The translations under genes were made by a program, and so were the position numbers. 64,000 bases of DNA from a bacterium. Lineage in GTDB: Bacteria > Oederibacteriota > JAAXVQ01 > JAUVAV01. The notes below the pieces were generated by a model, which worked only from the letters and a program-made list of their open reading frames with translations, was not told the DNA's origin and did no database searches. The stretch covers positions 1 through 64,000 of the forward strand of contig JAIORK010000008.1 in NCBI GenBank assembly GCA_021108215.1, written 5' to 3'. This document shows, piece after piece, positions 21,298 through 51,457 of this stretch; positions within the stretch are counted from its first letter, which is position 1, and every line of letters starts with the position of its first letter.

Positions 21298-21326
21298 TTG
21301 AACGTTTCCTGTGATATATTTAGAAT
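21298..21326 (+). promoter_or_regulatory. Sigma70-like promoter of the giant gene
   Basis: TTGAAC (21298-21303), a 17-bp spacer, then TAGAAT (21321-21326). The start codon at 21372 lies about 40 bases downstream of the expected transcription start. Confidence 0.6.
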
Positions 21327-21371
21327 ACTTCATTATTTATGATAAAGGAATGCTTTAAAAGGAGTTCGTGC

Positions 21372-24300
21372 ATGTATCGAATGGATGAGAAGCCATTCCA
21401 ATCAAAAGTAAGAATATTTTCGTTTTGGCAGTCATCTGCGGCTCGAAAAGGTATCCGGGCGCTGGCATTGCTGATTACGTTGACATTTGTTTTTCCTTAT
21501 CTTACCTGGGCATTTGAGAATCAGACCTTTTTAACCGGATTGTCCACGGTTTTTTATCGCAACCAACCGATTGAAATTCCTAAAAAACTCGGGACCATTT
21601 CCCGGGTGATTCAGGGCCAAAATCAGGTTGTGATTCATATCGAGGATTTACATTGCAATTATGAAGTGCAAATGAATATTGCCAAGATGATCCGGCTATT
21701 TTCAAAAAAACTAAATTTGCATCTGGTGGCGGTGGAGGGAGCGGCCCGGGAAGTGAATGTGCGCAAGCTTGCGTCATTCCCGGAAAAGCTGGTACGCAAA
21801 CAGGTTGGCAATTACTTTATGCAGCAGGGCAAAGTAACCGGCGCGGAATATTATGCCGCCCTGGCGCCTGAAACAGTGACCCTGGTCGGGATTGAAACAC
21901 CGGCCCATTATCAGACCAGCCGGGAAAAAGTCGCTGAATTTCTAAATGATGAAAGTCAGGGGTATGTATTTGATTTAAAAGATGCATTCCAGGAATTGAA
22001 ACCATCGGTCTATTCCCCAACGCTGGCCAAACATGATCACTATCGCAGCGGGTTTATTGCCGGGCGTAAATCCCTTTTAGCCTACGCGGTCTATCTTTAC
22101 AAATCCGGATTGAAAATCGGTTTGAGTATGCAGGCGTATCCCAATGTGAAGGTCTTTGTTTCCAAACGACTTAATATTTTCCCGCTGGAGGCGGACGCCG
22201 ACCAGCTTTATTTTGAGATTGAAAAACTGGAAAAACAAGTTCGCGCACCTTTGTATAGCAATGACCAAGAGCAGGAACTGGATCATCTCATGTCCCGGTT
22301 GGACGTAATCGAAAAATTACTTAGCATTTCCGCCGCACCTGAGGATTTGAAACTTTTTAGAAAGCAGCGGACATTTTTCCGCGTAGATCGTTTTGTGGAG
22401 TACATCGCAAAAAATGATCCTACCGGGAATTTGGAAACGGGTTTTGAGATTTATCGTTTGGATGGTTATTTACGTGAGGTGGAAGCGTTTTATAGTCTGG
22501 CGGATACCCGCAGCCATGCATTTGTGGAAAACACCCTGCAACAGATGAAAAAGCACAAAACCGGTATTGCGGTGATGATTACCGGTGGATTTCATAGTCC
22601 GGTCATGCAGGCGGCATTTCAACAACAGGGAATTTCTTATGTAAATGTGAAACCGCGCTTAAGCCGGCCTGACCTGGTCAATCCCTATTTTGCTTTGCTG
22701 CGTAACCGGAGCACGGCGATTGAAAAACTGTTGGCGCAAAACCAGGATATTCTGGCGTTGCCGACCATTTTCCCGCAAGGTGAGGGCCGGGGCGTTGCGT
22801 TTGAAAACAGTCAACCCAAACGGGTCAAGACGTTTTTGAAATTATTGGATGTGACCCTCAAGCAGGGATTGATTGCATCATTGATGCGCCGGGGTGTGGA
22901 AGGTTTGGGCGCGGTTGAGAGTGAATACCTTCAGGAGTTACGTGCCTATACGGAAAACAATGAAAAAATTAGTATTGACTGGGAGCGGGCTGCCGCCAGT
23001 CCGTCTTCACAGACGTTTTTCCTGCCGATGCATAATACCGGTTTTACCGTCGTGATTCGCAGACAAGGCCGGAAAATTCAGGGTGAATCCCTGGCTACCT
23101 GGGATTTGGGCAATGCGTATGAGATTGCGATGTTTGATCAGACAGTTGCCGAGCAAATGCAGGTTCAATTGCTGCGTGAAGAAAGTGATTCTCTGCGCGG
23201 GACCCTGGTGCGGCTGGCATTGCTCAACAGTCCGGTGGCGGCCTTGATTACCGGCAGCAGTGCCGCGATGGTTCGGGACAGGCGTTCGCTGTTCGCGATG
23301 TGGCAAACAATCCGGAGCAGTACGGCAATGCGCGGACTGGCAACGGTTTTAGTTCGGGCGGCGTCCGGTCTGGAGCAAGTTAGCACCCGGCTTTTGGTAT
23401 TACGCAATCAGCCCCGCGTTATTCTGGGCACGGCTGCGGTTGCGGCATGGCTTGGCAGTCTGGCAATAGGAAATCCGGTGTTGGGCAGTATGATATTTTT
23501 ATCCATGTTGGCGCTGGACTGGCAGTTCAATCAGACCGGTTGGCCGCAGTTGGCAGCTGTCGCGCCCGGCATTCAGGGGATGACAGTTGCAATGCAGACG
23601 ATACTGCAGCCCTCGGCAGATACAGGAATTATCCGGATGCAGGGAGACCTAAGTAGTTCCGGAAAATCGGGTGCGGTTGCTTCCGGTCCTGAAACCGCCT
23701 TCGTTGCCAAACGCACCATTTTGCTGCGAAACAAAAAAAATACTTTGGCGGAAATAACGGACGCGACCCGGAGTTTGCTGGAGCTCATCCAGGAGCAGTA
23801 TTTACCGCAAACGGAAATCAGAGGGACCGCAAACCTTCAGCCGATTAATTTACATTTATTGAAAATACTGGTTACGCAAATAAATACTGATTTGCAGAAT
23901 CCGGAAAAATTTTCTGTAGAACAATTTCAGGACAAATATTTTGAATACGTGGAAATGCTTGCCAATTTGCTGCATAGTCAGGCTTGGTTGTCGCCGACCT
24001 ATGCAGGCTCGGCGGTCATGGAGAGAGGGTTGCTGCAAGGGGACCGATATCCGGTCCGGTATGAGCGTGAAGAATTGAGCCCGTTCCAATTGGAAAGCTC
24101 TTTTTTGGCAGGAATTTTTCCAGGTGATTCCCGCCTGCTGTTCAGAAACGGAAAAATACTGATATACGATCTGGCAACCGCCCTGATGGCTAATATGCCA
24201 AAAAGCGCGGCTGCTTATCGGCGTGCTTTTTACATCTCTCCTAAGCTTCCATCGGAGTTTAAGATCAGTTTGAAAAGAATGTTGGGTGTTTCCAAAAAAG

Positions 24301-27300
24301 CCGGAGATCAACTGCTGACGCCGGAGACTTTTGGGAAATATAAAAGTATTGTTATCAGTGCAGACGATCTGGCAGATGGTGAATTACTGGATCAGATGAC
24401 CGCGTATAACCGGGAGCATTCGGCGTTTGCGGATAGAATAGTAAGTGTTGTTGTTTATTCCAAAACCCGGATAGAGCTTTTGCCTGAGCAAAAGGCTGCT
24501 TTGCAGGCGGCGGATATCGATTTTTTTGAGGTTTATAATTTAAATAAACTATTGCATATACCGGCGCGCCGGGCATCGGGGACAGCTGTTTTGGTCAGTC
24601 ATTTTGCTTCAGAAACCCGAAAAAAAACCTTGATCCAGCAGTTGCTGAAGAATCGCAAAGACGGCAGTAATATTGACAGCTATCTTAATTGGTATTTGTC
24701 TTTGCTCGCCGGTAAAACCCAGCAGGCCAGCCTTGATACCAGTTATTATCCAAATACCCAGGAGGTTATTCATCGGCAGACGCTGATTAAAAGAACACCG
24801 GAATTGCTGCAGAAGTATATCAGTTTGCATCGACAGATGCAGGCGCTCGCGCTGCGTCCCGGGCTTGCCGGCCGGCTGTACCAAGTGGTTTTACAGCGCA
24901 TCCAGGAGCACATAGGACTCTTAAAGACATTTAACCTCCGGGGGCCGCCGCCGACCGGGGATGCGGCGCTGAATAAGTGCCGAGATAGTTACAGTGAATA
25001 CCGGACGCTTATGAAATATTTGGCCTACTTTCAATTGAATAGCCTGCAGAGTAAAAAAAATCGGACGGATATGGCCCGCAGTAGTTTAGAAGAAATGGAA
25101 GTACGCCTGAATAAAATGAATACACCGGTAAAGTTGTCCGCCGGTGGTCACTTACCTCAATCCACCTTGGTTTTTTCCAGCGGGATGGCTGCGGTGAAAA
25201 TCCTTCGGCATTTTTTAAGCATCCAGCCGGGGGTTGCGGGCCGGGAAGCGGGAATTCTTTTAGAAACGAATATTTATTACGAAATCAGCAGTCTGCTTAA
25301 AAGCGGCGCCGGGGTGCTGCAGCCTATAAAAGTCGTTGACTATAAAGATATTGACGGGTTGGTGAAGCTGGCGGCCGGCGGCGGGTATTCCGCATTGTTT
25401 TTGGACCCGGTGGCCAATGCCATGTCCGCGTTTAATAATAACCGGGCTGATCTTCCTGTGGCGGATTATCAATCGCTGCTGCACCGGTTGGCTGGTTTGA
25501 CATATTCTGAACCTTTTTATTTGATGATTGATACCAGTTTGTTTGGACCGGTTTTTCAGATCGAACCTTTCCTGCGCAAACTGAATGTTCCGGACAACTT
25601 GCACTTCGTACTTTATTCCAGCCTGCAAAAACACCATCAAGATCACCGCGAGTATTCCACTGGGGGTATGTTAACCATCATCTCACGCCGCGTAGACCAG
25701 CATCAATCAGCGGTACAAGGTTTGCGGTTGGCACGTGATACCCTGGGACTGCGTCCCAATTTCCTGGAGGGCATTCTGTTGGCGAATGCGCTTCCGTCCG
25801 GCAAGGTGATCGGTGATTATGTTGCCGGAACAATGGCCAATGCCCAACAACTGGCTGAGCATATTGCGCAGGAACTGACAACCTATCCGCTGAATGGACA
25901 GGTTGTTCATCCGACATTGCCCTCTCATCAAGATCATGCCGTATGGCAGGCCAATCAAACCCCCGGGGTTCCATTTGTGATGCTTAAACTTGGTTTCCGG
26001 AAAAACAAAATGTTTATGGAAATGCTCAACCGCAGATTGGTGCGTGCCGGGATTGTGATTCAGGCGCGGGATAGTTTTGGTTTTTCTAATTTAACCTATA
26101 CTCATTATTTTCCGGGTAAAAGCGATGAGACGATTCGTTTCAGCCTGGCACCCTATGCAGTTGAGGAAATGGAGAAAATTAAAACAGCCTTTAGTTCGGC
26201 GTTTCAGGAATTGGATGAGCAACGGAGGTTGGGATATCCCGGACCCTATAGCCGCTATCTTTCCTTGCCGGGCGCACTGGGTTCCCTAACAGCCGGACTG
26301 GGTATGCTGGCGTTGGCTTGGGTATTTCCGTTGGCATTGGGATTGGCATTGCCGTATACGATTTTTGCAGCTGCCAAACTGCGGGTCGCTTGGCGGGAGT
26401 GGCAACAGCTTGAAGTTGCCGACAAATCATGGCGAACGCCGGTAGCGTATTACAATCCGGCCACCGGTCAGATATTCGACCGTAATCAAAAAATCATTAT
26501 TGATGGTTCGCCGATTGTCATTGCGCATGAACGCTATGCGCATCGCTGGGCGCAGCATCTGCTGCGGCTGGTCGGGATGGATACCAGTCTTCCTTTTTAT
26601 GCGGTGACGCCGCGAATCCGTTTGCTCCAAAATTTGCTCCAGGAATTGCTGGCCCATGCGCTGGATTTTATTGCGCTGCCTTGGGCGCTGCGCGACTATG
26701 GCCGTCCCTTGCCGGATGTGACAGTCAGCTTTTATGGAAAAAGTTATCACACCCGGGAGATTATCCATCTCTTTGAACGCGGCCTGGGATTGGGCGGCAT
26801 GATCTTTGAAAAATTGACGCCGCAGATCCAAAAACAAGTGCGGCGCCGTATCAGTCCGGGTGCCTGGGCGGCTTATCAATATGAGAAGTTTGTTGACCGT
26901 CATTTGCAGCGGATCAATCAGCAGTATTTAGGCGGGCTTTCCGGGAGCATGCAGGAAAAAAGATTACAGGAGAATTCCCGCCTGAGAGAAAAGGTCTTTG
27001 TGATTGGCAGAGAACGCCTTATTACCGCTCACGGTACGAGCGCACTGGGGAATGGGTTGACCAATCTTATAAAAATTATTTTAGATGGAAAAATTGATTT
27101 TACTCCGGGCCGGGAGACGGCCGGGGCTTTGGACCGGGGGGAGAGCTCAATTGCGGCCGGAGTTTGGGGGCCGCAGTTTATTCTGGTGGGATCACCCCTG
27201 CGAGTGCGTTATTGGAATGGTATTAAAAACCACCGGGCGTATCTTGTGCAGGATTCTATTGATCGGAATATTTTACTGGCATTACTGGCGCAGGCCGGGG

Positions 27301-39300: not shown

Positions 39301-42300
39301 TTACCGCGCAAGCAACACAGGCACAGAAGAAATTTTGGCAAAAAACCGGGATGAACCCGCAAGGCCAATTTGTGCATGCCGGATTTGAAGATCTCACCCG
39401 CCGGGCGGTCTCGAAAGCTGAAATTTTAAGCGCGGTCAGGCAACTGCCGCAGTGGTTTGCTGACGCCTATCCCGGTCAGGCACGCACCGAACTGCAAGTG
39501 TATTTGGCAGGCGAGCTGGTACCTTATTTAACTGCTGCATTTGAAAAGCGCCGGTTGGGTGATATCGCTATTCAGGCAGCCGCCGACGAGACGGTGTCAG
39601 CCAAACTTTACATCGCGGCAACGGATGCGAAACTGGACTGGATTGACCGCGAAAAATTATCAAGTATTTTACGCGAACTCTATCCGGGTGAATTGGCTGT
39701 GACCGAGATGACTTGGATAAGACCCGGGAAAGTGGCGCGTCTGGGTTTGGTGCACAACGGCCGGGTGGAAAATGTTTATTGTCGGCGTGAGGGATATTCA
39801 CTTACGGCCCTGGGCATGACATTGCAGGCATTGACCGGTTTGGATGGGTTTACGATCCGGCGTTTGGGTGAAGACGGGATGGTCAGTGTGGATGCCGGGA
39901 TAACGGTTACGGAATTTATTAAACTGGGGCACCGTCTGCTTGAACATGCCGGGGAGAATGCGGGATATCAAAAAATATTGGAAGCGTTTTTTGAACAGTT
40001 GAGCAGCCAGTTGGGTGTTTTGCTGGCCAGCCATGTTCTGCTGGCGTACCAAGACGGGGCGCCGCACAATGTGGTTGTCAAGGGTATGATGCAGGTCAAA
40101 GCCGCATTGGATCAAGGCAAGACCTATCAGGCGTTTGAAATTTTGCGCCAAATTGTTGAAACGCGTGATGTTAAATTGACCAATATTGATTTTGAGGTGA
40201 ATCAGCTTTTTAATAATGTACCGGTTTCGCAGTGGAATTCATACGCCAAATATGTTTTGTTGCAAAATTTCAGAGACCAAATCGATATGGAACGTGTTTT
40301 GAACAGTTATGATTCTGCTTTTGATGAGGCGCGCAGCCGTCAGACAGAGGTGGAAAAGGCCATTGTTGATCATCCTGTACAGGGGCTAAAGCATCCGGCG
40401 GCAGTGGAAGGGGGTATTCGGCAGAGACTGTCACCTACCACGCAACTGCGGTATTTCCGGCGTTTGCTCCGGAGTATTTCGCTGCCGGCAGGAATAAAAA
40501 ATCGTCTGGATGCCCTGGACAGTCCGTTCGACCTGCCGGATTTGGAAATTTCTTTTTGGGAAAAATATTTGCCTGGATTCCCCAAGCAGCTTCGGACATT
40601 GGGTGAAGAACTTATTTTCCGTGTCACGCCCATGTTGTTGTTCCATCTCGGTTTGATCACGCCGGTGACGGCCGCCATTGCGCTCACGGTTTTTTCCGCT
40701 GCATTTTTGTATCAGCACAAGGATAAAGGTTGGAATGTGCGCCAGTGGATAACCGCCGGGCTGATGACGACCCTGATCGCGCTGGTTTATTTTGGGACAG
40801 CTTATGGTTTGTCGGCGGTTGATTATCCGGTGGCCGGCGGTGTGCTGGCGTTTTTGGCAGCATCACTGGTGCACAGTTTTAATAACTGGTTGTCCGAGCG
40901 TTTTCCTGCTGTCTGGCCTGCGCTGGCACTCGGGGCTACGGGCCGGGGCAGACAGATGCTCAGCCGGGTTGATAGGGCAATGCAGCAAAAAGGTACGGCG
41001 GAAGCGAAGCATTTATTGCTGGTGGCATTGCGCAAGTTACATCAGAGCAGACCCCGGAAACTCATAGCATCGGCGCGCACGACTGTTTTACAGGCGATTG
41101 GGAGCATCTATGCCGACAAGGTGTTTTCGCCGCGATTGCGTTTGTGGCAACAGGGCTTGGCAGCATCCCGGCCGCTGGAACAGATTTATGCTGATCTGGA
41201 CCGGCTGGATGGATTGCTGAAAAAAGACCCCAATGATTACTGGCCCATTAATTTGAATGACCTGGACTTTTGGAGCGAGGCGCTGGGATTCAAGCGGGTG
41301 AAGGCCGTCGGGGATGCGGGAAGTCCCCGCACCATCGGCAGCCGGTATACATTTGTCCGCCACATGTATGACAATAGCAATGTCAGTTCTACGGTTTCAG
41401 TTTACCAGGACAACCGGACCGGCCGGGAAGTCGTGGTAAAGACGATTACTGCGCATAAATTCTTTTTCATTTTACTCAAAGAGTATCTTTGGCTCAGTGA
41501 TCTGGCGGAAACGGTTGCTGTGCCCCGGCTGCTGGAAGGCGGCATTTATAAGAGCGGTCCGAATAATGTGGATGTTTATTATATGGTGATGGAGCTGGTA
41601 GACGGTGAAACCCTGGATAGCATCATGGGGAATGAAAAATTGGCACTGGTGGATTTGGCAACGCTGACACGCGGTTTGTTGCGTGAGTATGCCCGTTTAC
41701 AACGCCACGGGGTGCTGCAAATAGATGTTAATCCCGCCAACATCATGCTGCTGCGGGAAAAAGGCGGTCAAGCCTGGGATGTTGATTACAATCGTCCGGT
41801 CCTGATTGATTTCGGGTTTGCCATGCCCTTGCCGGAAAGCGGGATTGTCCAGTTGCTGCACTGGATTGGTCTGCCCCAGTGGCACCATCAGATGAATATA
41901 AAAGACGGTCGCTATACAGTGCGAAGTGAACTTGGGATTTTGGCTAAAATATTACTGGCCATACCGATGAAAAAACAGCTCGCGGTTGAGGAGCTTGAAT
42001 TTCGCGATTTTTTATTTAAATTATCACATTTTGAATATGCTTCCGCTGAAGCGGCGTTGTTGGCACTGGAGGCCCATCTCCCGGAAACCATGCAGATTGC
42101 GGAGTCAGCTGCGTTGTTTCCGGATACAGTTTCGGTGGTTAAAGCGGCCAAAGACGATGCTGCGCTGCTTGCGAAGGATACTGCCCGGGAAGTGTTGGAG
42201 TTGATGCCAGATGCTTTTATGACCGGCACCGCTGTCATGCGCGCCGGACAATTGAAGACCTTGCTGGCACTATTGCAGCATGAGTCATTTGAGATTAAGG

Positions 42301-45300
42301 CACAGGCACGCGGGCTGCTGGATAGACTGATGACGGATACTGAATTGTTTAGCCGGTTGGACCTGAGTCAGGTGACGGCTGTGCGTACAGGGTTGGCGGA
42401 TCAGCCGTATTTAGGGGCAATCAATATTTCCACTCAGCCGGGACGCTTGGGGCAGTTGAATTATTTTCTCGCCCGCCAGTCATCTTTGCGCGGGCTGTTG
42501 ACCCAAGGCGGAAAGATAGTTATTGATACGGTCGGTATTGGCGGCCCCCTGCCCTATACAGTGGCTGAAATGGCCAAAAGGATACACGCGGTCAATCCCG
42601 AGGCTGAAATAATCGGGTCGGATATTTTAATTCCTCACTGGGTCATCACCGATCAAACCACCGGCCAGTTCGCTTATTACAACCAAGCAGGAGAATTGAT
42701 CGGCGTTTTTACCCGCGATGGCGGTGGATTGACCAAGGACAGTGAACTCCAGCCCATGGCCGCGCTCTTTGATCAGGTCCGCGCCAAGACCCTGCCGGAA
42801 AATTACCAGGTGGAAGAAAATCCTTTTGAACAGTATGCAGCGGAAAATCAGTTTGCGGTACAAAAGGCAGCGTTTGGCAAAGGCATCAAGGCGGATATTA
42901 AAATTTGTATGAATGTGCTGTATATGTACGGCAGGCAGCGTACACAGATTATTGAGAACATGGGACGCGACCTCAAAGAAAACGGATATCTCATCACCGG
43001 TGAGGAAGAAGACGGTATTGTCTTTGTCACGCTTTATCAGAAACAGCAAGGCAGACTGCAACCGCAGGTATCTGCGCAAGTAAGAGGCGATTCTATTTAT
43101 GAAATTCCGGTTTACGGTCAATCCATTGCGGTTGCTGAGGAAAAGACACAGCGTCTGGTGGCGGCATATATTTTTAATGATCTGGGACGCTGGCCGGTAC
43201 TGGTCCGGTTTTATGACAGTCTTGAAAAAGCGGTCGGGAAACTGTGGGGGGGGAATGTCGGGCGTTTTGTCGGACAGGCATTGGCGCCTGCGCTGCTTGA
43301 ATCAGGATTGTTTGTCGGTATGTTTACTTTGGGGATACAGCTTTTGCTCGCGATGGTATCCGGCGTGCCCTTTGCGATGGGGCCGCCGACATGGGTTTTG
43401 TTCGGCGTTTTTCAGCTGCTCTGGCACGGCTTGCATCTGCCTGCCGATCAAGGCGGCTTGACAACCTCAGAATTTTTACGTAGCTGGCTGCAATCGGCAT
43501 TTTCACCTGCACGCATTGCCACCACCGGTTTGACCGGTGCGGTGCTGCTTGCGATGCAGCTGCTGCTCAACCCCGGCGGGATTTTATTTTCCGCCTTGTT
43601 CCTGCCGGTTTTGGTCGGAGTACATGTCGTCGTGAATGTCTGCGGCAACCTGAAAAAACAGTGGGATGCCAGTTGGCAAAAATTGGCATTGAATCTGTGG
43701 CGGCAGACATTCAAGCTGCTCAATGGCAAACGGCCTTTGAATATTTATGCGGATTTCAATGAGACCCTTTCGCGGCTGCGAACCCACCGTTCGCTCAGCT
43801 TGAAGGATATTGTTGGCAAGGATATTGAAAATGAGACGGACAGGCTGGAATTCAGTGAACGCTACAATCAGGCACGGAAACAGTTTAGTGAAAAGCTGAC
43901 GCCTGAACTTTACAAGGAGTATTATCAAAGCCTGTCCGGACATATGACGCTTAAGCATAGCAGGGAACGGGCACGACGCTGGAAACTCAATGAGAATTTC
44001 TTTGCCAAGATCCATGCCATCCAGATTGCGACCGGTATCCAAGAAATTAATCTGCATGTGATCAGCCGTTCCAGTGAACAGGCTTTGCGTCATTTCTTCC
44101 AGTTGCCCTCGGTAAAAAAACGGTTGAACGGGGCGGAGATCCGGATCGAAGCGGTCAAGGCCAACCGGTTGGTTTTTGATGAAGCCGGTGTGTTTACCGG
44201 CGAGGTTCTGGAAGATTATTCCCAGGCCCTCATTGCGGACAACAAGTATGAGTTTGTGCCTGAAGGTGTGATGTACCTGGGTGATGCCAAGGAGCACCAA
44301 TACGGATACCGGCATTTCATTGATGTCAATGCAAGGCAGGGGTCGGCCCGGGCCATCCGGCAATGGATGCGTGAAATTATCAACCAACGCTTGTTCAGTT
44401 CGGTTCGGATGTTTCTTGCCTGGATAAAACGGGCATTGAAAATGCGGTTTACAAAAAAAGCAGTACGTATGTCGGACTATCGCGAGAGTCGTGCCTATCA
44501 GGCTATGACCGAGGCGGTTTCGGCCGTGCCGATGAAAAAGACCCAGTCTGCGATCAAAAATATTCAGACGCTGTTTGTCCGGCATCAGGTCGGGCTGGAG
44601 GATTTCGTATCGGAAAAAGATATCCGTCAAAGTTGGTCGGATAAAATCATGGCAAAAGCCGACAAGTTGTCTCGGGCTGTTCAAAAAGAGGTTGGCGCTT
44701 TCGAACGCGATCACTTGCAACATCTTTCAGAACCGCTCCGGCGGGCTTATTGGGATTGGATACTGCTCCGGCTTTTTATGCAGCATGACGACGGATTCAC
44801 CTTCGGCCATTCCTGGGAAGTGGGGAATCTGGCTGCGAAAATGGCAAGTGTCTATGGCCGTGTGAATATGCAGGATGATTTAAGCCCGGAAACGATTGAT
44901 ATCTTCCGTCGCGGCGGCTGGCTGCATGATGCGGGGAAATTGATGATTCCCCGGGAACTGCTTTTAAAGCAGGAACGGTTGACGCATAAAGAGCGTATGC
45001 TGATCCGTACCCATGCCAAGTTGGGCGAGAGCGTCCTGGATGCGTTTGGCTACCCGGCTTCAATTATCCAGGCCACCAACCACCATGAATGGCTCAATGG
45101 CAAGGGGTATCCGCGTGGATTACACCGCGAAAATGTCCCGGCACTGAGCCGGGCGATCGCTATTGCGGATGCCTATAATGCCGCCACCGAACGTGCCTAT
45201 AATGGTGATAAAGTCATTGCGATATTCCGGGAATTTTTTGAGTATTCAACCAGCGTGGTGTCGCGTTACGATTCGCGTTGGGTCAACGCGCTGCGGAAAA

Positions 45301-47234
45301 TCAAGTATACGGAAATTGATACAAGCGGGTTGGACCTTTTCCAGCTTGACCAGGCGGTGGAACGGGAAAAAGACAGCGGCGGATGGTTGCGGGTGTCACC
45401 GCTGCGCATCTTGGGCCAGATCATCGGAATCGGATTTATGGGCGGCCTGATGGGATTTTGGCTGTTTCAGGACCCGGCCTTGTCAACCCTGACGATGGCC
45501 GGGAGTATGAGCGGCTTGGCTGTGGGTGCGATTCATGCACATCGTCTTATCATACGTCGTCAGATTACGCGTTCCACGCTGGTGCCGCTTACGGCTGACA
45601 CGTTGAATTTGCGCCGGGCACAGTTGCTTGAGATGATTCAAGTGCAGGGTGATCTGCCAAAGGGATACGATGCAAATAAAATTCGTCTGGAAGTTCTCGC
45701 GCTGCCTGCACGCACACGTTGGTGGCAGCGTTTAATCCTGGGGCAGGGTGAACGGCGCGGGGATGAAATGATCATTCGTTTGCATCCGCAACTCCACGTT
45801 CTTTCCATCCAGGAGATGGCGGTTGTGGTGCGGCATGAAATTTGGGAAGCCTATACCGGAAGCCATCTGCGGGCAAGCCTCTCGGAAATTGTGATGCAGT
45901 GGTTTGGTGCCCGGACAACCGCCCCGGAAGTTGCAAGCGCGGTTGATGAAGCGCCGCTGTTGACCAACGAAACCCCGCGCGGAGAGCGGTTGGGAAAAAT
46001 TCCGGAAGTGCTTATGCAAATGCAGGAACTTGCGGCCTGGGGTATTCGGCCGAATGAAGCCCCGGCACCTGCCTGGAACGGCATGCAACAGATTTTGAGA
46101 AATTTACTCAATACTTTTGTTTTTGAACAGTCGGTTTATCAGGCCGGAAGTGCGCTGCTGCGGATTCCGTTTGAAAAAGCCAGTGAGATTTTTGGCAGCG
46201 GATTGCTCCTGGTAAGAATGGGTGTGCGCCTGGGTATGAGGCAGCCCGCCGAAACAGGTTTGACAATTGATACCGCGCATCCTGCACTGCAAACGCTGTT
46301 ATTGGAAAACGGGCTTCCGGATAAAATTGCCTGGCAAATGGCGGGCAAACATCGCATCGCACTGCCGGAAATTCAGATTCAACCGATTACAGCAGAAACG
46401 AAATCAGAGTTAAACAGTTCGCGTGCAAAACGGTTGGGTGTTCTGCAACCCGCCGGGAATCAACTTGTACTCTATCTCCCTGCGGGTTTACTGGCGCGGC
46501 ATCTAAAAGGCGCGCCTGCCAAGGATGCCAAAGGCGTGCGCGCAGCCTGGGAGCGCCGGACCTACCGGCTAAACCGGTATGCACTGGGTCTGCTTATTAA
46601 AGATCATGCAGCAGGCTATCAGCAAACCACTCGGATGGACCTTATGGTGGCGGCATTGAAGGCGCAATCGCAAACCACGAAAAAACCGTTTGAACAAAAT
46701 CTGCCTGCCATGAAAATAGGGTTGGCAATGGCGGCCCGGCTGCCTGCGTTTATAGCCGGCCCGATTCATCAGTACTGGCAAAAGAGAAATCCGGAGAGCT
46801 ACTTGCGCCACAATTTGGGCGGACCAGAATCCACCCTAAGTCAGGGACTTTTGGATGCACAATCTCCGCTAGGTGCATTGTTCCGGATTTATCTGGCAGC
46901 ACCCACGGCTGAAGTTGGCCGGGCATTTATGCGTACAGCGCTGGAAAGCATCCAACACGAGCAGGCGGCCGGCCGGATTCAGGAAAGCATGGCATCTATC
47001 GAAATATTGTCACAGCTTGCGAAGCGTATGCCTCAGATGCGGGGACGTGTGATCGGCCGGTGGACAGCCACGAATCAGACCATCACATTGCCCAAATGGA
47101 TAAATGCTTCAGGCAATGCCAGGTTAAAAGGAATGCTCATCGATATTCTTTCGCCGATGCCTGTCCTGCTGGAACAGAAATTCCTCAGTCCGGACCGGAA
47201 CCGCATCCGGCGTCGTCTGGGCAGCGCAGCCTAA
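21372..47234 (+). CDS. Giant multidomain membrane-associated protein, 8620 residues
   Basis: This single frame has 8620 codons and no stop. ATG 21372 has AAAAGGAG at the right distance; the in-frame ATG 21339 has none. An N-terminal hydrophobic segment (residues about 30-48) looks like a signal-anchor. Domains in order, by approximate residue: TraB/ChaN-like 77-430; PLP-enzyme-like 1240-1610; duplicated membrane module 1625-1780 and 2515-2668; FHA-like beta region 2137-2197; GT4 glycosyltransferase 2725-3163; methyltransferase-like 3397-3590; kinase-like 3753-3903 and 4210-4387; HIT-like 4590-4760; methyltransferase 4937-5083; NagB-like 5333-5563; Cys/kinase-like region 5710-5984; CPBP protease 6397-6510; kinase-like 6653-6833; methyltransferase-like repeat 7010-7230; HAD-like 7455-7647; HD-GYP 7797-7977. 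A module with HEIxEA occurs three times. Cellular role and processing are unknown. Similar giant ORFs are reported in Omnitrophota. Confidence 0.93.
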   Translation: MYRMDEKPFQSKVRIFSFWQSSAARKGIRALALLITLTFVFPYLTWAFENQTFLTGLSTVFYRNQPIEIPKKLGTISRVIQGQNQVVIHIEDLHCNYEVQMNIAKMIRLFSKKLNLHLVAVEGAAREVNVRKLASFPEKLVRKQVGNYFMQQGKVTGAEYYAALAPETVTLVGIETPAHYQTSREKVAEFLNDESQGYVFDLKDAFQELKPSVYSPTLAKHDHYRSGFIAGRKSLLAYAVYLYKSGLKIGLSMQAYPNVKVFVSKRLNIFPLEADADQLYFEIEKLEKQVRAPLYSNDQEQELDHLMSRLDVIEKLLSISAAPEDLKLFRKQRTFFRVDRFVEYIAKNDPTGNLETGFEIYRLDGYLREVEAFYSLADTRSHAFVENTLQQMKKHKTGIAVMITGGFHSPVMQAAFQQQGISYVNVKPRLSRPDLVNPYFALLRNRSTAIEKLLAQNQDILALPTIFPQGEGRGVAFENSQPKRVKTFLKLLDVTLKQGLIASLMRRGVEGLGAVESEYLQELRAYTENNEKISIDWERAAASPSSQTFFLPMHNTGFTVVIRRQGRKIQGESLATWDLGNAYEIAMFDQTVAEQMQVQLLREESDSLRGTLVRLALLNSPVAALITGSSAAMVRDRRSLFAMWQTIRSSTAMRGLATVLVRAASGLEQVSTRLLVLRNQPRVILGTAAVAAWLGSLAIGNPVLGSMIFLSMLALDWQFNQTGWPQLAAVAPGIQGMTVAMQTILQPSADTGIIRMQGDLSSSGKSGAVASGPETAFVAKRTILLRNKKNTLAEITDATRSLLELIQEQYLPQTEIRGTANLQPINLHLLKILVTQINTDLQNPEKFSVEQFQDKYFEYVEMLANLLHSQAWLSPTYAGSAVMERGLLQGDRYPVRYEREELSPFQLESSFLAGIFPGDSRLLFRNGKILIYDLATALMANMPKSAAAYRRAFYISPKLPSEFKISLKRMLGVSKKAGDQLLTPETFGKYKSIVISADDLADGELLDQMTAYNREHSAFADRIVSVVVYSKTRIELLPEQKAALQAADIDFFEVYNLNKLLHIPARRASGTAVLVSHFASETRKKTLIQQLLKNRKDGSNIDSYLNWYLSLLAGKTQQASLDTSYYPNTQEVIHRQTLIKRTPELLQKYISLHRQMQALALRPGLAGRLYQVVLQRIQEHIGLLKTFNLRGPPPTGDAALNKCRDSYSEYRTLMKYLAYFQLNSLQSKKNRTDMARSSLEEMEVRLNKMNTPVKLSAGGHLPQSTLVFSSGMAAVKILRHFLSIQPGVAGREAGILLETNIYYEISSLLKSGAGVLQPIKVVDYKDIDGLVKLAAGGGYSALFLDPVANAMSAFNNNRADLPVADYQSLLHRLAGLTYSEPFYLMIDTSLFGPVFQIEPFLRKLNVPDNLHFVLYSSLQKHHQDHREYSTGGMLTIISRRVDQHQSAVQGLRLARDTLGLRPNFLEGILLANALPSGKVIGDYVAGTMANAQQLAEHIAQELTTYPLNGQVVHPTLPSHQDHAVWQANQTPGVPFVMLKLGFRKNKMFMEMLNRRLVRAGIVIQARDSFGFSNLTYTHYFPGKSDETIRFSLAPYAVEEMEKIKTAFSSAFQELDEQRRLGYPGPYSRYLSLPGALGSLTAGLGMLALAWVFPLALGLALPYTIFAAAKLRVAWREWQQLEVADKSWRTPVAYYNPATGQIFDRNQKIIIDGSPIVIAHERYAHRWAQHLLRLVGMDTSLPFYAVTPRIRLLQNLLQELLAHALDFIALPWALRDYGRPLPDVTVSFYGKSYHTREIIHLFERGLGLGGMIFEKLTPQIQKQVRRRISPGAWAAYQYEKFVDRHLQRINQQYLGGLSGSMQEKRLQENSRLREKVFVIGRERLITAHGTSALGNGLTNLIKIILDGKIDFTPGRETAGALDRGESSIAAGVWGPQFILVGSPLRVRYWNGIKNHRAYLVQDSIDRNILLALLAQAGEDGLLSKRRAQQVRSRIMTYAEFIAQAEKGVVPGETMTVGERLARLSTGKKISLFSLLALVAVRVISGESLSLAYLFEYVNLDMPLYLSAGISIFGLKGAKGPQALEAGRRYLIEYQGPFKIQLGDKNGQELDVVAYRDLPDLLKPFFNKNVPYIILDPHQQDMHSGFAGLRPGKPVKIGTGLPNRFTLPDGVSPVHVHLETFANGQIMIQDQFSTGGTYVLGADRMDGYAQDERIVQAELAWRHFIEHGIIVNKPGGGYFVNRTWKPDVGSDAVAMLDAYQDSREALEGARQVWKQVQQPVSSRQMFETGKREPAQLLALADNFENLYERLRELNPDVNGLDAEALINMIGMVRTGKAPMTVFTSLEGTELAGLSSIVSKLQNREEVIPQVLAEVNTFQQLYAFLETQTGNYRGKTGPEWLELVKQVREDMLTPNWITNGQDTLLKGLRDMVMRLKQADALKSAQWEKAVQLGIVTRIPGTSSDYFVIKNWHPGMTIDSRRITQQVSYRMDAFDLALPILERAAGRPAADAFDPQRGQPLSLPGSLMALGMGVGLLALSMAMPLVGAVALPYSMMAIAKLMTTLQEWRKLSPATRTFTTPVAMYDPKYGAIKNHLGQTLENAHWIILAHDHYAHSWAKQLLKRLGIDINRFPTKSLRFYVFNVIICEVMAHFFDFMAVPVALARYYRAPKKNVYTILGVFGLLTLAALFVVIPTLPVSLPVMAMVAAVLVLNIIFVHNLTPLMLMKPKRVGILSALMGGLDGVSLELEKIVEVLNRTGHSVVGLSANGNAIAAETESIGGASFDNLINQFILSQALPDFPPEKKFYYLHQAWLKKQKNPGFDTANYIRQFIPGQELLPQDNVEAAEMLLQRESERIKQQILKIVDARGLDTLILENTNTIPFQFPLAEAMVKVAQARPDLHIINHNHDFYMERRWAEKRAPFIQKYLDRGFPLQGGNVTNNVISSFAIRLLREHRGMKAFEIWPNVMDYKERVPDISPESMQDIAQRLNLKQDDIPVVLPVRIVERKSMEIAVYLMKALKDKRYKLIITGFETDTDQRYKQSVKAYIDDLGVGDQIIFMEEQEQAAMGIKPGWKGTKRLVSLEEMYAFARRRGGFAVYSSTKEGFGNALLEVVHAELPLVVFPYAVYQLDIQPKGFEFLQFPFIENSDQISSADLQVALQQGEIQKGIEQVAQEVKTKFSNRVWVRRNVKKNRVIAAREYSYEKLDELVAEALLLTEAVQQKAGVLRSVAARSFNARLLRLFGWEQARTLAGRAWISGLYSRLRPSYQERGLKRNLQQLQVWFLTRFMTEDRLRMMLQSPQRLKNITGLIAAQALFQKMAPTQREEIIRMLRSQLLFHKTSFEVIALTRNLLAEWVANPVYQALVTEQQRNEIAESLAQQPYFGHVNITTYQNRLKLLYNFLTTDTSLRTLLKKADGVVVKDVGLGGPEAYPTDELTRRVKQLNPHNQVIGMDVLIPHTMFYDTLSGAVAYFDAQGGFMGAWTQEGFFIYSEKDVATMAELYQLEQAQKLPGRYQSTVEPYQRFSEMSGYEVVAGSFGVGRMADITICMNTMYMYATQEALQISQLGKWTRPGGYVLVGDSMDDRIIFILYQKTQAQHLKPLKLILLKGRRRYEASLEENISQQEVAGRREALCHQEQRAINQRGFILSPLVVSLAGLSLFVLTVMFLGSVFYAAVIGVGGAVLALGAFFLLKRIRNAAQADKNRPAKEWGYIFKTAVREADRQRIIRAVERGRILTKAVGRALRGQKKDFQIGPVVNVTFIGAGAFKRAYRVQVPVMFADGTTREFDVALKIPRSVIGRIAMLQPRIWRHWLRGHVNLPAYHFISQGVIAEAYVHGNRLDEIETSNNGDGRPVARIAVNAYLSVLEHLKKVSGRNWFIFDPKPENMIQPRQPGAEPVLIDRDGLLPTPLPNHPFTLLVYFSAFYGEKRLGITRFMQGLLSPLILFTAPLIAYFVRPNQSIFAGVLDALGPEAGRAYLEKARQSRRFRLTARSAFSKGLDIYLQEQINAYKAPVLIQEQKIEVVGDEKPAGRLQVSALQAAVSAVGVIGIAGVLSMFLSPDSAVQITAVWSVAGTLGWLVSYIPRLFYITKLTASSAPVLMNTTIHKQMSLLLEDIERRGGLPAGYRRPELFVLPDQNTGAWTWQGVKVAGGKNGVIGLHARFLGLPYAMQRAVMIHEIYEAHHRNHFWASMQELRSYVSGFFRRSIPVITRDRFFQYNRIQQGNFSNAYLGKYAGREGVFIITKEMDPYHEDYDARVAADTDVLARIGTSVQTTVRKYHAMRGLRYQGRRMVPRVYAMVVNDAGYLVGYLCDRVPGEQLARLLAAGRLTEKQLEQVSGQLKDQLEIMHKKGFTHGDPHYENALVDMETMRAAFVDFVPQTETDSPGNDMSIFSDLLVANSRWLRMPYDERVTIFQNQFNQIVSLEAELDVLHNLQRETGYQINDAAYRKASANLRNVLASMKLHSGSIQNTQLLLWQIRQIVESEFLKLRTGYTPFRSALSQKMPVKMQVLQQSVLEQLAMVMNFWDDLFAFDRIAEKAVQPAPARRRLAVLNRAYRQISRNQIVDLATVPGYRLVDYLEALLGVTAPLVQGGNGTVAYSLDSDPMVECYTDGIFTLQRNGHIIYMAAAPFLDSGYVPQDNLLRVLEKKTIPRLIWHGPSQQRYAIMAAPSPRVPDELLVISLDRDAQTGKHFTQKMIPRFRTDMQALQVQLVKSGYALTFQSLDPREDNAMHFHMYAVPTRNLPLVRALDKGQLKFFESIGASGSVRLDLMSNLLFKNNDGRIVYPANGLLLRSADSALLADAGKEMLQEIQLLETAYHSLTWQQPDGTWAMLMMPLKTYLAGESKVRVNPLTTAGYVGVAPGDIYQQMVKTPGAGARYVSDILRQSTADFAVCRNIAQRIVPVLEQGARLQPSAEKPLEITVPMLPHPKNIEGAYAEQASVNVERMLRVLGVPKGAVVLNIGAGRNPLVSEQYHVINIDNYAYTGLEDGRVESRVFIGDIYAPGFTRRLMDTHQLDAKPDVVVFYNMRRFMDLYGPVSSSWVLQNKSMRDINIQAYLNQAADIVRPDGLILFAQFMAPEGYETDAITQEAIDLAVKATADMEDVTQAAVLIRSGEEKAGLPVAAVFRSTRQEQDSPTATRALKISPRNIILGITGWLLVSVFAMQFSTHAALTTFFMSGIGLGMIGLAVNYVPRLYYGFRLLSATVPPLDPAHVNTQLKGLIEDIERRGGLPENYQRPELYVLPKQNLGSKLWQGLLLGRGERGTIGLHANFNALPIVAQRAVLLHEIYEAHGSGHWRATWQELTSFVRRHVIAPARFSGVFQISRDDDAMSEKAAMQFAQSINRAIAKKGKAVVGFATGGTPKKMYALLRNHPERYGIDWRKVHTFNLDEYVGLPAGHEQSYRRFMEEQLFSHVPIPRENIQFLNGMAKDPAAEARRYEQAIQAAGGIDVQLLGIGENGHLAFNEPGTSFATRTGVVQLNDSTINANARYFDTKAEVPAQALSMGMGTLLDARELILLASGEKKAAVVARAFEGPVTERVPASALQLHEKAHVFIDRAAANSLHHSPGISAEIQLDWELTQINTTLMPLRSVYAHVPLIRDVLIALLRLELNTAGAREYLLAELEKMSDRQYGYSPAFVMGGGRKFDLFYAIELVKDYFRRGRPVVPEQYWHVTPDKFDAMLARALRITGRTLTIEEKAEARRFNRALLQIPWAMQDITNDPRYPHMCGPAAQIIMQVLLENGIVRKKFIFGEHVGVEAIVAGFKFYVDGTGNHVVQLDDRQIAPVVVPLLDIPDSPVLSAVYPAEYKQLTRGYYYAPDMQPDIAEALLKVREVVIEQRVRKGYRSTRSIIQDRTVGDLVFEPGDIEQGVSIYTHPETGFVLKLAAQAVGENYIKLAAEGGEGLAHTRRLLPQSIRIPGGKIFLKNAVLQQDIQDLGQLLEISVEAGLLDRAKNYLHDWADLQIKLFRRGLVDKLFTAQATQAQKKFWQKTGMNPQGQFVHAGFEDLTRRAVSKAEILSAVRQLPQWFADAYPGQARTELQVYLAGELVPYLTAAFEKRRLGDIAIQAAADETVSAKLYIAATDAKLDWIDREKLSSILRELYPGELAVTEMTWIRPGKVARLGLVHNGRVENVYCRREGYSLTALGMTLQALTGLDGFTIRRLGEDGMVSVDAGITVTEFIKLGHRLLEHAGENAGYQKILEAFFEQLSSQLGVLLASHVLLAYQDGAPHNVVVKGMMQVKAALDQGKTYQAFEILRQIVETRDVKLTNIDFEVNQLFNNVPVSQWNSYAKYVLLQNFRDQIDMERVLNSYDSAFDEARSRQTEVEKAIVDHPVQGLKHPAAVEGGIRQRLSPTTQLRYFRRLLRSISLPAGIKNRLDALDSPFDLPDLEISFWEKYLPGFPKQLRTLGEELIFRVTPMLLFHLGLITPVTAAIALTVFSAAFLYQHKDKGWNVRQWITAGLMTTLIALVYFGTAYGLSAVDYPVAGGVLAFLAASLVHSFNNWLSERFPAVWPALALGATGRGRQMLSRVDRAMQQKGTAEAKHLLLVALRKLHQSRPRKLIASARTTVLQAIGSIYADKVFSPRLRLWQQGLAASRPLEQIYADLDRLDGLLKKDPNDYWPINLNDLDFWSEALGFKRVKAVGDAGSPRTIGSRYTFVRHMYDNSNVSSTVSVYQDNRTGREVVVKTITAHKFFFILLKEYLWLSDLAETVAVPRLLEGGIYKSGPNNVDVYYMVMELVDGETLDSIMGNEKLALVDLATLTRGLLREYARLQRHGVLQIDVNPANIMLLREKGGQAWDVDYNRPVLIDFGFAMPLPESGIVQLLHWIGLPQWHHQMNIKDGRYTVRSELGILAKILLAIPMKKQLAVEELEFRDFLFKLSHFEYASAEAALLALEAHLPETMQIAESAALFPDTVSVVKAAKDDAALLAKDTAREVLELMPDAFMTGTAVMRAGQLKTLLALLQHESFEIKAQARGLLDRLMTDTELFSRLDLSQVTAVRTGLADQPYLGAINISTQPGRLGQLNYFLARQSSLRGLLTQGGKIVIDTVGIGGPLPYTVAEMAKRIHAVNPEAEIIGSDILIPHWVITDQTTGQFAYYNQAGELIGVFTRDGGGLTKDSELQPMAALFDQVRAKTLPENYQVEENPFEQYAAENQFAVQKAAFGKGIKADIKICMNVLYMYGRQRTQIIENMGRDLKENGYLITGEEEDGIVFVTLYQKQQGRLQPQVSAQVRGDSIYEIPVYGQSIAVAEEKTQRLVAAYIFNDLGRWPVLVRFYDSLEKAVGKLWGGNVGRFVGQALAPALLESGLFVGMFTLGIQLLLAMVSGVPFAMGPPTWVLFGVFQLLWHGLHLPADQGGLTTSEFLRSWLQSAFSPARIATTGLTGAVLLAMQLLLNPGGILFSALFLPVLVGVHVVVNVCGNLKKQWDASWQKLALNLWRQTFKLLNGKRPLNIYADFNETLSRLRTHRSLSLKDIVGKDIENETDRLEFSERYNQARKQFSEKLTPELYKEYYQSLSGHMTLKHSRERARRWKLNENFFAKIHAIQIATGIQEINLHVISRSSEQALRHFFQLPSVKKRLNGAEIRIEAVKANRLVFDEAGVFTGEVLEDYSQALIADNKYEFVPEGVMYLGDAKEHQYGYRHFIDVNARQGSARAIRQWMREIINQRLFSSVRMFLAWIKRALKMRFTKKAVRMSDYRESRAYQAMTEAVSAVPMKKTQSAIKNIQTLFVRHQVGLEDFVSEKDIRQSWSDKIMAKADKLSRAVQKEVGAFERDHLQHLSEPLRRAYWDWILLRLFMQHDDGFTFGHSWEVGNLAAKMASVYGRVNMQDDLSPETIDIFRRGGWLHDAGKLMIPRELLLKQERLTHKERMLIRTHAKLGESVLDAFGYPASIIQATNHHEWLNGKGYPRGLHRENVPALSRAIAIADAYNAATERAYNGDKVIAIFREFFEYSTSVVSRYDSRWVNALRKIKYTEIDTSGLDLFQLDQAVEREKDSGGWLRVSPLRILGQIIGIGFMGGLMGFWLFQDPALSTLTMAGSMSGLAVGAIHAHRLIIRRQITRSTLVPLTADTLNLRRAQLLEMIQVQGDLPKGYDANKIRLEVLALPARTRWWQRLILGQGERRGDEMIIRLHPQLHVLSIQEMAVVVRHEIWEAYTGSHLRASLSEIVMQWFGARTTAPEVASAVDEAPLLTNETPRGERLGKIPEVLMQMQELAAWGIRPNEAPAPAWNGMQQILRNLLNTFVFEQSVYQAGSALLRIPFEKASEIFGSGLLLVRMGVRLGMRQPAETGLTIDTAHPALQTLLLENGLPDKIAWQMAGKHRIALPEIQIQPITAETKSELNSSRAKRLGVLQPAGNQLVLYLPAGLLARHLKGAPAKDAKGVRAAWERRTYRLNRYALGLLIKDHAAGYQQTTRMDLMVAALKAQSQTTKKPFEQNLPAMKIGLAMAARLPAFIAGPIHQYWQKRNPESYLRHNLGGPESTLSQGLLDAQSPLGALFRIYLAAPTAEVGRAFMRTALESIQHEQAAGRIQESMASIEILSQLAKRMPQMRGRVIGRWTATNQTITLPKWINASGNARLKGMLIDILSPMPVLLEQKFLSPDRNRIRRRLGSAA
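21600..22660 (+). other. Giant protein domain: TraB/ChaN-like
   Basis: Starts VVIHIEDLHCNYEVQ and ends with VMITGGFHSPVMQAAFQQQG. The paired motifs (acidic-His near the start, GGFHS near the end) resemble TraB/PrgY and ChaN-type folds. The assignment is by pattern only. Confidence 0.5.
25090..26200 (+). other. Giant protein domain: PLP-dependent enzyme-like (fold type I)
   Basis: VFSSGMAAVKILRHFL resembles the cofactor phosphate loop, and Lys1420 in SSLQKHHQ sits where the Schiff-base lysine would be. It is closest in style to Cys/Met-metabolism enzymes. Activity is uncertain. Confidence 0.5.
26245..26710 (+). repeat. Giant protein membrane module, copy 1
   Basis: SLPGALGSLTAGLGMLALAW, then PVAYYNP, HERYAHRWAQHLLRLVG and ELLAHALDFIALPWALRDY. 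It matches the module at 28915-29375 residue by residue in many positions. Confidence 0.75.
28915..29375 (+). repeat. Giant protein membrane module, copy 2
   Basis: SLPGSLMALGMGVGLLALSM, then PVAMYDP, HDHYAHSWAKQLLKRLG and EVMAHFFDFMAVPVALARYY. The HxHYAH-W and AHxxDF histidines are shared with copy 1, which suggests a conserved site. Confidence 0.75.
29545..30860 (+). other. Giant protein domain: GT4 glycosyltransferase
   Basis: A GT-B fold pattern starts at VGILSALMGGLDGVSLELEKIVEVL. The E-x7-E signature of GT4 retaining enzymes is visible as Glu3100 and Glu3108 in STKEGFGNALLEVV. It resembles sucrose-phosphate-synthase-type enzymes. Confidence 0.7.
31560..32140 (+). repeat. Giant protein methyltransferase-like module, copy 1
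   Basis: KDVGLGGPEAYPTDELTRRV, then IGMDVLIPH, ITICMNTMYMYA and LYQKTQ. The arrangement is Rossmann-like and repeated at 42400-43060. Confidence 0.65.
33640..33960 (+). repeat. Giant protein HEIxEA module, copy 1
   Basis: LLEDIERRGGLPAGYRRPEL is followed by a loop and AVMIHEIYEAHHRNH (His4174). Two membrane helices precede it. Two further copies occur at 36970 and 45560. Confidence 0.75.
35140..35650 (+). other. Giant protein domain: HIT-like, paralogue of the 19878 gene
   Basis: YAIMAAPSPRVPDELLVISLD and AMHFHMYAVPTRNLPL parallel the standalone protein. His4731 and His4733 are kept, but the Gln of HxHxQ is Tyr4735, so catalysis may differ or be lost. Confidence 0.65.
36970..37290 (+). repeat. 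Giant protein HEIxEA module, copy 2
   Basis: LIEDIERRGGLPENYQRPEL and AVLLHEIYEAHGSGH (His5286), again after membrane segments and directly ahead of the NagB-like domain. Confidence 0.75.
37370..38060 (+). other. Giant protein domain: glucosamine-6-phosphate deaminase (NagB)-like
   Basis: FATGGTPKKMYALL, FNLDEYVGL (Asp5390), GIGENGHLAFNEPGTSF (His5461) and ALSMGMGTLLDA reproduce the NagB active-site blocks, so the fold and possibly activity are conserved. Confidence 0.85.
40560..40900 (+). other. Giant protein domain: CPBP/CAAX-type membrane protease
   Basis: GEELIFRVTPML (Glu6412 onwards) is the EExxxR motif, and His6501 in ASLVHSFNNW is the second catalytic motif. Transmembrane helices lie between. 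Confidence 0.7.
41330..41870 (+). other. Giant protein domain: protein-kinase-like, most intact copy
   Basis: Lys6690 (VVKTI), catalytic-loop IDVNPANIML (Asp6785) and LIDFGFA (Asp6813) give all three kinase hallmarks. The other kinase-like folds are more degenerate. Confidence 0.7.
42400..43060 (+). repeat. Giant protein methyltransferase-like module, copy 2
   Basis: IDTVGIGGPLPYTVAEMAKRI, IGSDILIPH, IKICMNVLYMYG and TLYQK match the module at 31560-32140 in order and spacing. Confidence 0.65.
43735..44310 (+). other. Giant protein domain: HAD-like phosphatase fold
   Basis: IYADFNETLS gives the nucleophile Asp7461, but the second acid of DxD is Asn7463. LHVISRS and MYLGDAKEH resemble motifs II and IV. 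Activity is doubtful. Confidence 0.5.
44760..45300 (+). other. Giant protein domain: HD-GYP phosphodiesterase
   Basis: GWLHDAGK (HD at 7852-7853), RTHAKLGESVL, HHEWLNGKGYP and IADAYNAATE make a complete HD-GYP domain, which in relatives cleaves cyclic di-GMP or related nucleotides. Confidence 0.85.
45560..45880 (+). repeat. Giant protein HEIxEA module, copy 3
   Basis: LLEMIQVQGDLPKGYDANKI and VVVRHEIWEAYTGSH (His8155). This is the most diverged copy, again preceded by two membrane helices. Confidence 0.7.
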
Positions 47235-48594: not shown

Positions 48595-48613
48595 TTGTGA
48601 TCGGATTGGTTTC

Positions 48614-48702
48614 GTAGAGCCGTTGCACCCCAAAAACGGGCACTTACGCATGCAACGGCTCTACAGGGCTACAACGTCTCTACACAGGCGCAACGTCTCT
48701 AC
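48614..48702. repeat. GTAG palindrome cluster (GTAGAGCCGTTGCA and GTAGAGACGTTG types)
   Basis: A composite palindrome (48614-48664) with a 24-bp insert is followed by two half elements ending CTAC. The last CTAC (48699-48702) contains the stop codon of the minus-strand ATPase. Confidence 0.8.
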
Positions 48703-49898: not shown

Positions 49899-49936
49899 AT
49901 AGACAAATATAAACTGTAAAGTTAGATTTGTCTATA
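49899..49936 (-). promoter_or_regulatory. ATPase promoter with 11-bp inverted-repeat operator, near-leaderless
   Basis: On the minus strand TAGACA (49934-49929), a 17-bp spacer and TATATT (49911-49906) end only 7 bases before the ATG, so the mRNA would be leaderless. TATAGACAAAT and its exact complement (49898-49908, 49926-49936) bracket the promoter. Confidence 0.6.
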
Positions 49937-49989
49937 TAAAAGTGGCGGTGTCAGGCATTGTCGGCAATTACCGTGGAATGTGGAAGACC

Positions 49990-50074
49990 GTAGAGCCGTT
50001 GCACCCGTGGAGGGATATTGCGTTTGTGTAGAGCCGTTGCGTTTGTGTAGAGACGTTGCATGCAACGTCTCTAC
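49990..50074. repeat. GTAG palindrome cluster
   Basis: Two GTAGAGCCGTTGC half elements (49990 and 50028) precede a perfect 28-bp GTAGAGACGTTGCA palindrome at 50047-50074. They lie upstream of the mobile mystery pair. Confidence 0.85.
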
Positions 50075-50155
50075 GATTGGTATATAAAAAATGTAAAAAA
50101 AGCCCCTCAGAAGTCATTTATAGTTGTCAGTTGTTATTATATTTGCTATAGTTTT

Positions 50156-50216: not shown

Positions 50217-50229
50217 AGGGGAGGATAAT

Positions 50230-51264: not shown

Positions 51265-51321
51265 ACAAGTATGCTTCGTATGTTGGTAAAATTGGCGCCG
51301 GTTACGGGGGTCGCTGGGTTC

Positions 51322-51411: not shown

Positions 51412-51428
51412 TTGTGAATAAATCAGTA

Positions 51429-51456: not shown

Positions 51457-51457
51457 T

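Follow-up and report, generated by a model that had tools for sequence, protein, structure and literature searches.

A 25.9-kb bacterial gene belongs to an expanded family of modular, membrane-associated giant proteins with common ends

A 64,000-nucleotide stretch of a bacterial contig, here called the window, contains a forward-strand reading frame (21372-47234) that remains open without a break for 25.9 kb and 8,620 codons, which raises the questions of whether such a frame is a real gene, whether it stands alone, and what a protein of this size might do. Base composition predicts ~419 stop codons in this stretch, and the +2 and +3 frames contain 351 and 422. Using a codon-usage score trained on the window's other genes, the reading frame ranked highest of the six frames in all 43 consecutive intervals of 600 bases, and this signal over the whole ORF rules out a chance frame. 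When the gene was compared with relatives from other genera, substitutions by codon position followed the order 2 < 1 < 3 in six of six comparisons, and the same order was recovered for the blocks that are missing from the shortest relative. BLAST homologues in other giants or in neighbouring ORFs cover 84% of the chain. The giant gene is real, and the single 8,620-codon frame described in the first-pass annotation is confirmed by the open frame, the codon-usage signal, and the codon-position pattern. That annotation had also proposed a promoter and a ribosome site, of which the latter is the better supported: an AGGAG ribosome-binding site (21360-21364) lies 7 nt ahead of the ATG at 21372, and for this reason we prefer this start (8,620 aa) to an upstream ATG at 21339 from which the same frame is also open. 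The sequence at 21298-21326 resembles a promoter with a weak 9/12 match, and four such matches were found compared to 1.8 ± 1.6 in shuffled sequence. We consider it very improbable that an assembly or frame artefact explains the ORF; the source is a metagenome-assembled genome (MAG) in which two paralogues seem to be frameshifted and a 55-base repeat interrupts two, but the ORF in the window is unbroken, carries coding signal along its whole length, and belongs to a family that is present in eight independent genomes.

The gene had been presented as a single giant, but it is one of ten paralogues. Its first 500 residues, which belong to a region here called the head, match ten places in this genome, each at the start of a long frame; the other nine headed frames are 8,763, 8,376, 9,337, 9,482, 4,517, 9,269, 3,500, 5,753, and 2,270 aa, which rules out the view of a lone gene. 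The ten giants range from 2,270 to more than 10,000 residues and total ~219 kb, or 6.2% of the assembly; two of them reach contig ends that share exactly 55 bases and are therefore longer than what is seen. Beyond the head, the content of the paralogues is largely unlike that of the window protein. Comparison with giant ORFs of related genomes, proposed earlier as a check, recovered the same headed family throughout the order: among 45 genomes of the phylum examined, the head is present in all eight of the order (8-34 copies each) and absent from all 37 outside it. Among named genomes, the nearest are MAGs of the FCPU426 type, of which two carry the label Firestonebacteria and one the label Goldiibacteriota (the NCBI labels of these MAGs are mixed); going by these record titles, an origin in Omnitrophota is rejected. 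The parallel that had been drawn with Omnitrophota thus fails for the nearest named relatives but holds for the head, given that distant heads, 23-30% identical, open long frames in that phylum; seven Omnitrophota genomes have 6-70 head matches each (many of these heads are split in two), with frames of up to 10,910 aa.

Several loci show further variation in how headed frames are arranged. Apparent frameshifts, after which the chain resumes in another frame, are seen in L021 (G000:C12:36810-39851) and L015 (G000:C4:1-2971) of this genome (G000), and the C12 paralogue reaches a normal -AGAA end after its shift; these may represent sequencing error or a programmed shift. A tandem pair of heads occurs at G000:C36:131250-155488, one belonging to a divergent member of ~2,200 aa that may have long been part of the family's core, and the same pairing is found in G001:C44, G004:C297, and G007:C100. 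One relative has four headed giants in tandem (G001:C34:15756-45128).

Members of the family follow a common plan, in which a signal sequence and an EreA/ChaN-like head are followed by a variable middle and by a C-terminal motif that usually ends in [AS]A. In the window protein, the N-terminal hydrophobic export segment (aa 27-47; 21450-21512) has a conserved P-x3-WAF end and may be either a cleaved signal peptide or an anchor, both being compatible with the sequence. The constant head that follows (aa 48-620; 21513-23231) carries an invariant DxH ... EG ... GGxH pattern, and D47, H49, E77, and H363 are invariant in an alignment of 72 heads and are candidate counterparts of the EreC catalytic residues. 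An AlphaFold2 model of the head (pLDDT 88) had erythromycin esterase EreC and its relatives as best Foldseek matches (probability 0.95, E 0.011), the resemblance being weak at a TM-score of ~0.2. The head may recall the EreC/ChaN-like superfamily in its modelled fold and in its invariant His/Glu/His positions, but differs in its low TM-score, in the lack of any sequence match in Pfam or PDB searches, and in its fusion to giants. With reserve, we call the modelled fold EreA/ChaN-like in preference to the earlier label of TraB-like; the TraB Pfam profile matches none of the ten heads.

The opposite end of the protein is also largely constant. The C-terminal domain and motif (aa 8440-8620; 46689-47231) are common to most giants of the order, in which the last 180 residues are homologous and stand at the very C-terminus. 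The conserved elements are a proline and a further stretch, and the chain closes with a basic run and two alanines. Among the complete giants of relatives, 30 of 34 have A as their last residue, mostly as [AS]A, compared to 7 of 214 control ORFs that end in [AS]A. The motif may act as a sorting or turnover tag. Several Omnitrophota giants end in SAA, ISA, VSA, or TSA, and -[AS]A ends occur on Omnitrophota giants and adjoining long ORFs at L105, L108, G045:C57, G047:C14, and G049; the C-terminal signal may be common to both phyla.

Between these ends, domain searches and transmembrane (TM) segments bear out the earlier description of a multi-enzyme, membrane-associated chain, with multiple TM segments and hairpins found between the blocks, although the individual domain assignments fared differently. 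The NagB (glucosamine-6-phosphate deaminase) module (37350-38021) is strongly matched (Pfam 1.3e-34; PDB 2bkv, 1.2e-55) and has the LDEY and NGHLAFNEP active-site motifs; the HD-GYP phosphodiesterase (aa 7810-7943; 44799-45200) is likewise strong (Pfam 1.1e-17; PDB 4r8z, 2.4e-14), with both HD and GYP motifs. The HIT-like assignment also holds, in the form of a HIT/Ap4A-phosphorylase-like module (aa 4652-4881; 35325-36014) that is supported through its paralogue upstream of the giant. The PLP-enzyme-like block (aa 1095-1616; 24654-26219) finds weaker support in a match to the cystathionine gamma-lyase/synthase type, with the K of S-x-Q-K conserved. The GT4-like glycosyltransferase (~aa 2700-3260; 29469-31151; ortholog in L035) and the kinase-like modules, at least three in number, have weak matches that are nevertheless recurrent. 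Kinase-like module 1 (aa 3709-4029; 32496-33458) was assigned from motifs (conserved K, E, KPEN, and DRDG), module 2 (aa 4210-4541; 33999-34994) has HGDxxxxN and VDF, and module 3 (aa 6631-6870; 41262-41981) was found by profile and PDB searches.

The methyltransferase-like assignment is marginal, coming from a CheR Pfam match. Copy 1 (aa 3333-3611; 31368-32204) is conserved across genera and presumably has this fold, but it has no credible PDB match and its name is therefore tentative; copy 2 (aa 6967-7244; 42270-43103), also conserved across genera, repeats it. A further SAM-methyltransferase-like module (aa 4916-5110; 36117-36701), its putative fold taken from a motif, has a homologue in L139, and a CPBP-like membrane module (aa 6405-6520; 40584-40931) has an EExxxR motif visible in the sequence. 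GCN2 and WbdD, an O-antigen kinase-methyltransferase, are among the closest PDB matches of one kinase module; kinase and methyltransferase modules also lie close together in the giant, but its architecture is different from that of WbdD and the similarity is remote. The active-site motifs of NagB and HD-GYP are conserved, as are the kinase and PLP motifs, and the embedded enzymes look intact.

Many of the repeats inside the giants pair a zincin-like motif with a TM segment or hairpin ahead of it. The window protein has two modules with a TM segment and an H[ED]xYAH motif (aa 1616-1780, 26217-26711; aa 2500-2680, 28869-29411) and three in which a TM hairpin precedes a minigluzincin-like domain, with HEIYEAH in copies 1 (aa 4023-4212; 33438-34007) and 2 (aa 5133-5309; 36768-37298) and HEIWEA in copy 3 (aa 7983-8173; 45318-45890). 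Among the paralogues, one HExxH type is repeated four times in C12, and a RHEQAH type five times in C4a/C4b. In a set of 93 giant ORFs, we counted 39 HExxH motifs compared to 5.9 in shuffled sequence, a 6.6-fold enrichment, while the scrambled motif HxxEH occurs 5 times (5.7 expected) in the giants and HExxH 5 times (3.3 expected) in ordinary ORFs of the same loci; in seven Omnitrophota giants, HExxH occurs 7 times against an expectation of 1.3. A TM segment lies within 230 aa upstream of 17 of 24 zincin-like motifs, to be read against a baseline of 24-45% of residues that varies by giant. TM hairpins also occur without peptidase motifs, and some giants (C6, C8b) have no zincin motif by the patterns used.

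An AlphaFold2 model of the TM-zincin module of the window protein (pLDDT 74, from seven sequences) shows a hairpin, beta strands, and an active-site helix. Both a profile search (E 0.074) and a fold search (E 0.94) place proabylysin, a minigluzincin, first among its matches; each match is weak, and it is the agreement of the two methods on this modelled fold, not either score, that would carry weight. The modelled module would share the small zincin layout of the minigluzincins (proabylysin, 4jiu) and of SprT/Wss1-like zincins, but differs from them in the TM hairpin ahead of it, in its repetition inside a giant, and in the HExxE of the window copies, in which Glu replaces the second His of HExxH; a copy in L063 has HExxH. 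The HEIYEAH module has 16 copies in the order, all in frames of at least 822 aa and nearly all in recognised giants, and is absent elsewhere in the phylum. Because the window copies have HExxE and copies in the relatives L109 and L136 look degenerate, peptidase activity is uncertain, and proteolysis may have been lost or never present. Giants of relatives (L037:9938-21457, L088, L090, and others) carry several different HExxH families, two of them in the ~2,200-aa member of L090. In the C12 giant, aa 2802-3247 and 5011-5456 form an internal duplication of 97-100% identity, which could be either a recent event or gene conversion.

Short and long relatives suggest how such giants may grow. The closest relative, L035, has 2,765 aa and consists of the head, the GT4, methyltransferase-like, and kinase-like modules, a TM bundle, and the C-terminus. 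The window protein is longer than L035 by large blocks that have duplicated modules at their edges, namely H[ED]xYAH at 1630 and 2517 and the methyltransferase-like module at 3333 and 6967. Comparison with L136 shows an extra block, 4009-5323, with an HEIYEAH module on either side, where L136 itself has a single TM hairpin whose HE motif is diverged. A stand-alone DUF4922/Ap4A-phosphorylase-like gene (19878-20984) lies directly upstream of the giant, a position conserved ahead of giant heads in four relatives; the embedded module at aa 4652-4881 is its paralogue, with 30% identity. No NagB-family match other than the embedded module was detected in this genome. NagB is likewise embedded as the only copy in G003, while the gene is free-standing in G004 and G007 and undetected in the other four of the eight order genomes; as it is embedded in some genomes and free-standing in others, we regard it as a captured gene. 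The chain would thus grow by capture of ordinary genes, such as nagB and the DUF4922 gene family, and also by duplication, with repeated TM-peptidase and methyltransferase modules at the edges of the extra blocks. It is conceivable that the giants are by-products of recombination, in which passing genes accreted between repeated modules and most modules have little function, and both the frequent internal duplications (one near-identical in C12) and architectures that differ between genera are consistent with this; the purifying pattern across modules, the conserved catalytic residues, and the status of the embedded NagB as the sole one in the genome argue against it, and we consider it improbable.

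We estimate a probability of about 0.5 for the reading that the window protein is a member of an expanded family of modular giants, found in the FCPU426-type order and diverged in Omnitrophota, and that it forms a membrane-held glycan and sugar-phosphate multi-enzyme chain that has grown by capture and duplication and is cut, now or formerly, by its minigluzincin-like modules. Such a chain would be seated on the inner membrane, with at least the NagB stretch in the cytoplasm, and would carry a c-di-GMP-type phosphodiesterase alongside NagB, GT4, and several kinases and methyltransferases, its chemistry being mainly that of sugar phosphates and glycans. The PMM/PGM, nucleotidyltransferase, GT4, phosphorylase, and GH5/99/130 domains of the paralogues and the WbdD match of one kinase module speak for this reading. 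The minigluzincin-like modules would cut it, or would have done so in ancestors, into membrane-held pieces. If the head is outside and the enzymes are inside, an odd number of membrane crossings is needed; positive-inside charge flanks fit cytoplasmic enzyme blocks, but with only eight clear hairpins this evidence is thin. Against a glycan role, the domain list is mixed and also includes PLP, HD-GYP, SecYA, and cytidylate kinase. A bolder form of this reading, which we regard as doubtful, is that the lineage runs part of its metabolism as self-processing membrane polyproteins, in which at least ten chains with exported heads would use their TM-zincin modules to excise the enzymes they have captured (the sole NagB, and a second SecY-SecA in a paralogue) and would bear a C-terminal tag for a common fate.

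The main rival holds that the giant stays uncut, as a membrane-tethered scaffold that channels substrates and in which the peptidase-like modules are structural spacers or recombination handles. The HExxE of the window copies, the degenerate copies in some relatives, and the hairpins without peptidase motifs all fit this account, but HExxH is conserved and enriched in other giants, and the activities that are joined are very different and without obvious pathway order; we treat it as a possible but tentative alternative. For Velamenicoccus and other Omnitrophota giants, a role in predation or epibiotic attachment, as a weapon at the surface or on contact, has been proposed (PMC10066038, PMC12419801); it is less likely for the window member, and we think it unlikely overall. 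The export segment and the head are common to Omnitrophota giants, but Pfam searches of the window protein returned neither adhesion nor lytic domains, the substrates that the embedded NagB, kinases, and HD-GYP require are cytoplasmic, and the genome, at 3.56 Mb, is not reduced; the prey-contact chemistry suggested in the first-pass annotation finds no support here. A polymorphic toxin is rejected because both ends of the giants are constant and the middle varies, whereas such toxins combine a variable C-terminal toxin with an immunity gene, and no immunity gene was recognised in the immediate neighbours of the giant that were scanned.

Omnitrophota and their neighbours are already known to encode giant proteins with many domains (PMC10066038, PMC12419801, PMC12057145), including the giant ORFs of Omnitrophota described by Seymour et al. 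2023 (PMC10066038) and gigantic Skillet-Lipocone proteins (PMC12419801). The West-Roberts 2023 giant-gene preprint is cited in PMC12057145 and PMC13104272, the latter of which, citing the preprint, suggests that giants are processed. Like the window family, the Omnitrophota giants are TM-rich, many-domain proteins of thousands of residues with polysaccharide enzymes, methylases, and metallopeptidases, and share a homologous N-terminal head; the window ORF, with its multiple TM helices, likewise exceeds 20 kb. The window family differs in that it comes, by record titles, from another phylum, in its embedded NagB, SecY+SecA, and PMM, and in that Pfam scans of the window protein and its paralogues found none of the discoidin, laminin G, and dockerin domains reported for Omnitrophia. 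Type I/II megasynthases (NRPS/PKS) are also very large multi-enzyme chains, but the giant has no carrier, condensation, or ketosynthase domains by Pfam, its modules are mutually unrelated, and it contains TM hairpins. As far as the published accounts (PMC10066038, PMC12419801, PMC12057145, PMC13104272) and their citations of the preprint go, they describe no common head and C-terminal motif, TM-zincin punctuation, or FCPU426 family, and the defined family and its anatomy appear new. Giant bacterial proteins are usually reported singly, with few domains and unclear function, and the present giants form a whole family that is definable by its common head, C-terminal motif, and repeated membrane-peptidase punctuation, with the head found in two phyla. 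The family offers points for testing whether bacterial metabolism can run on giant chains that cut themselves or act as scaffolds, namely whether the sole NagB is active inside a chain of more than 900 kDa and whether the chains are cut at predictable places.

The paralogues carry a broad set of other Pfam domains, including PMM/PGM, nucleotidyltransferase, PPDK, trehalose synthase/GT4, phosphorylase, calcineurin-like phosphoesterases, rhomboid, cytidylate kinase, and GH5/GH99/GH130. One joins SecY, SecA, and TolC-like domains in a single chain. This giant lies on contig C4 of the genome (L016:2-10966 and L015, both on the reverse strand), with a SecY match of 1.9e-47, a SecA with an ATGQGKT Walker A motif, and repeated TolC-like OEP domains, and has canonical secY and secA beside it; its domain content would be compatible with a possible accessory export machine. 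SecY and SecA also occur together in one long frame in G002, G003, and G005. Downstream of the giant in the window (47488-64000), GC drops from ~0.50 to 0.34-0.40 across an island-like region that encodes a Fic protein, an AAA/DUF4143 protein, HTH genes, and a DEAD/helicase-C protein.
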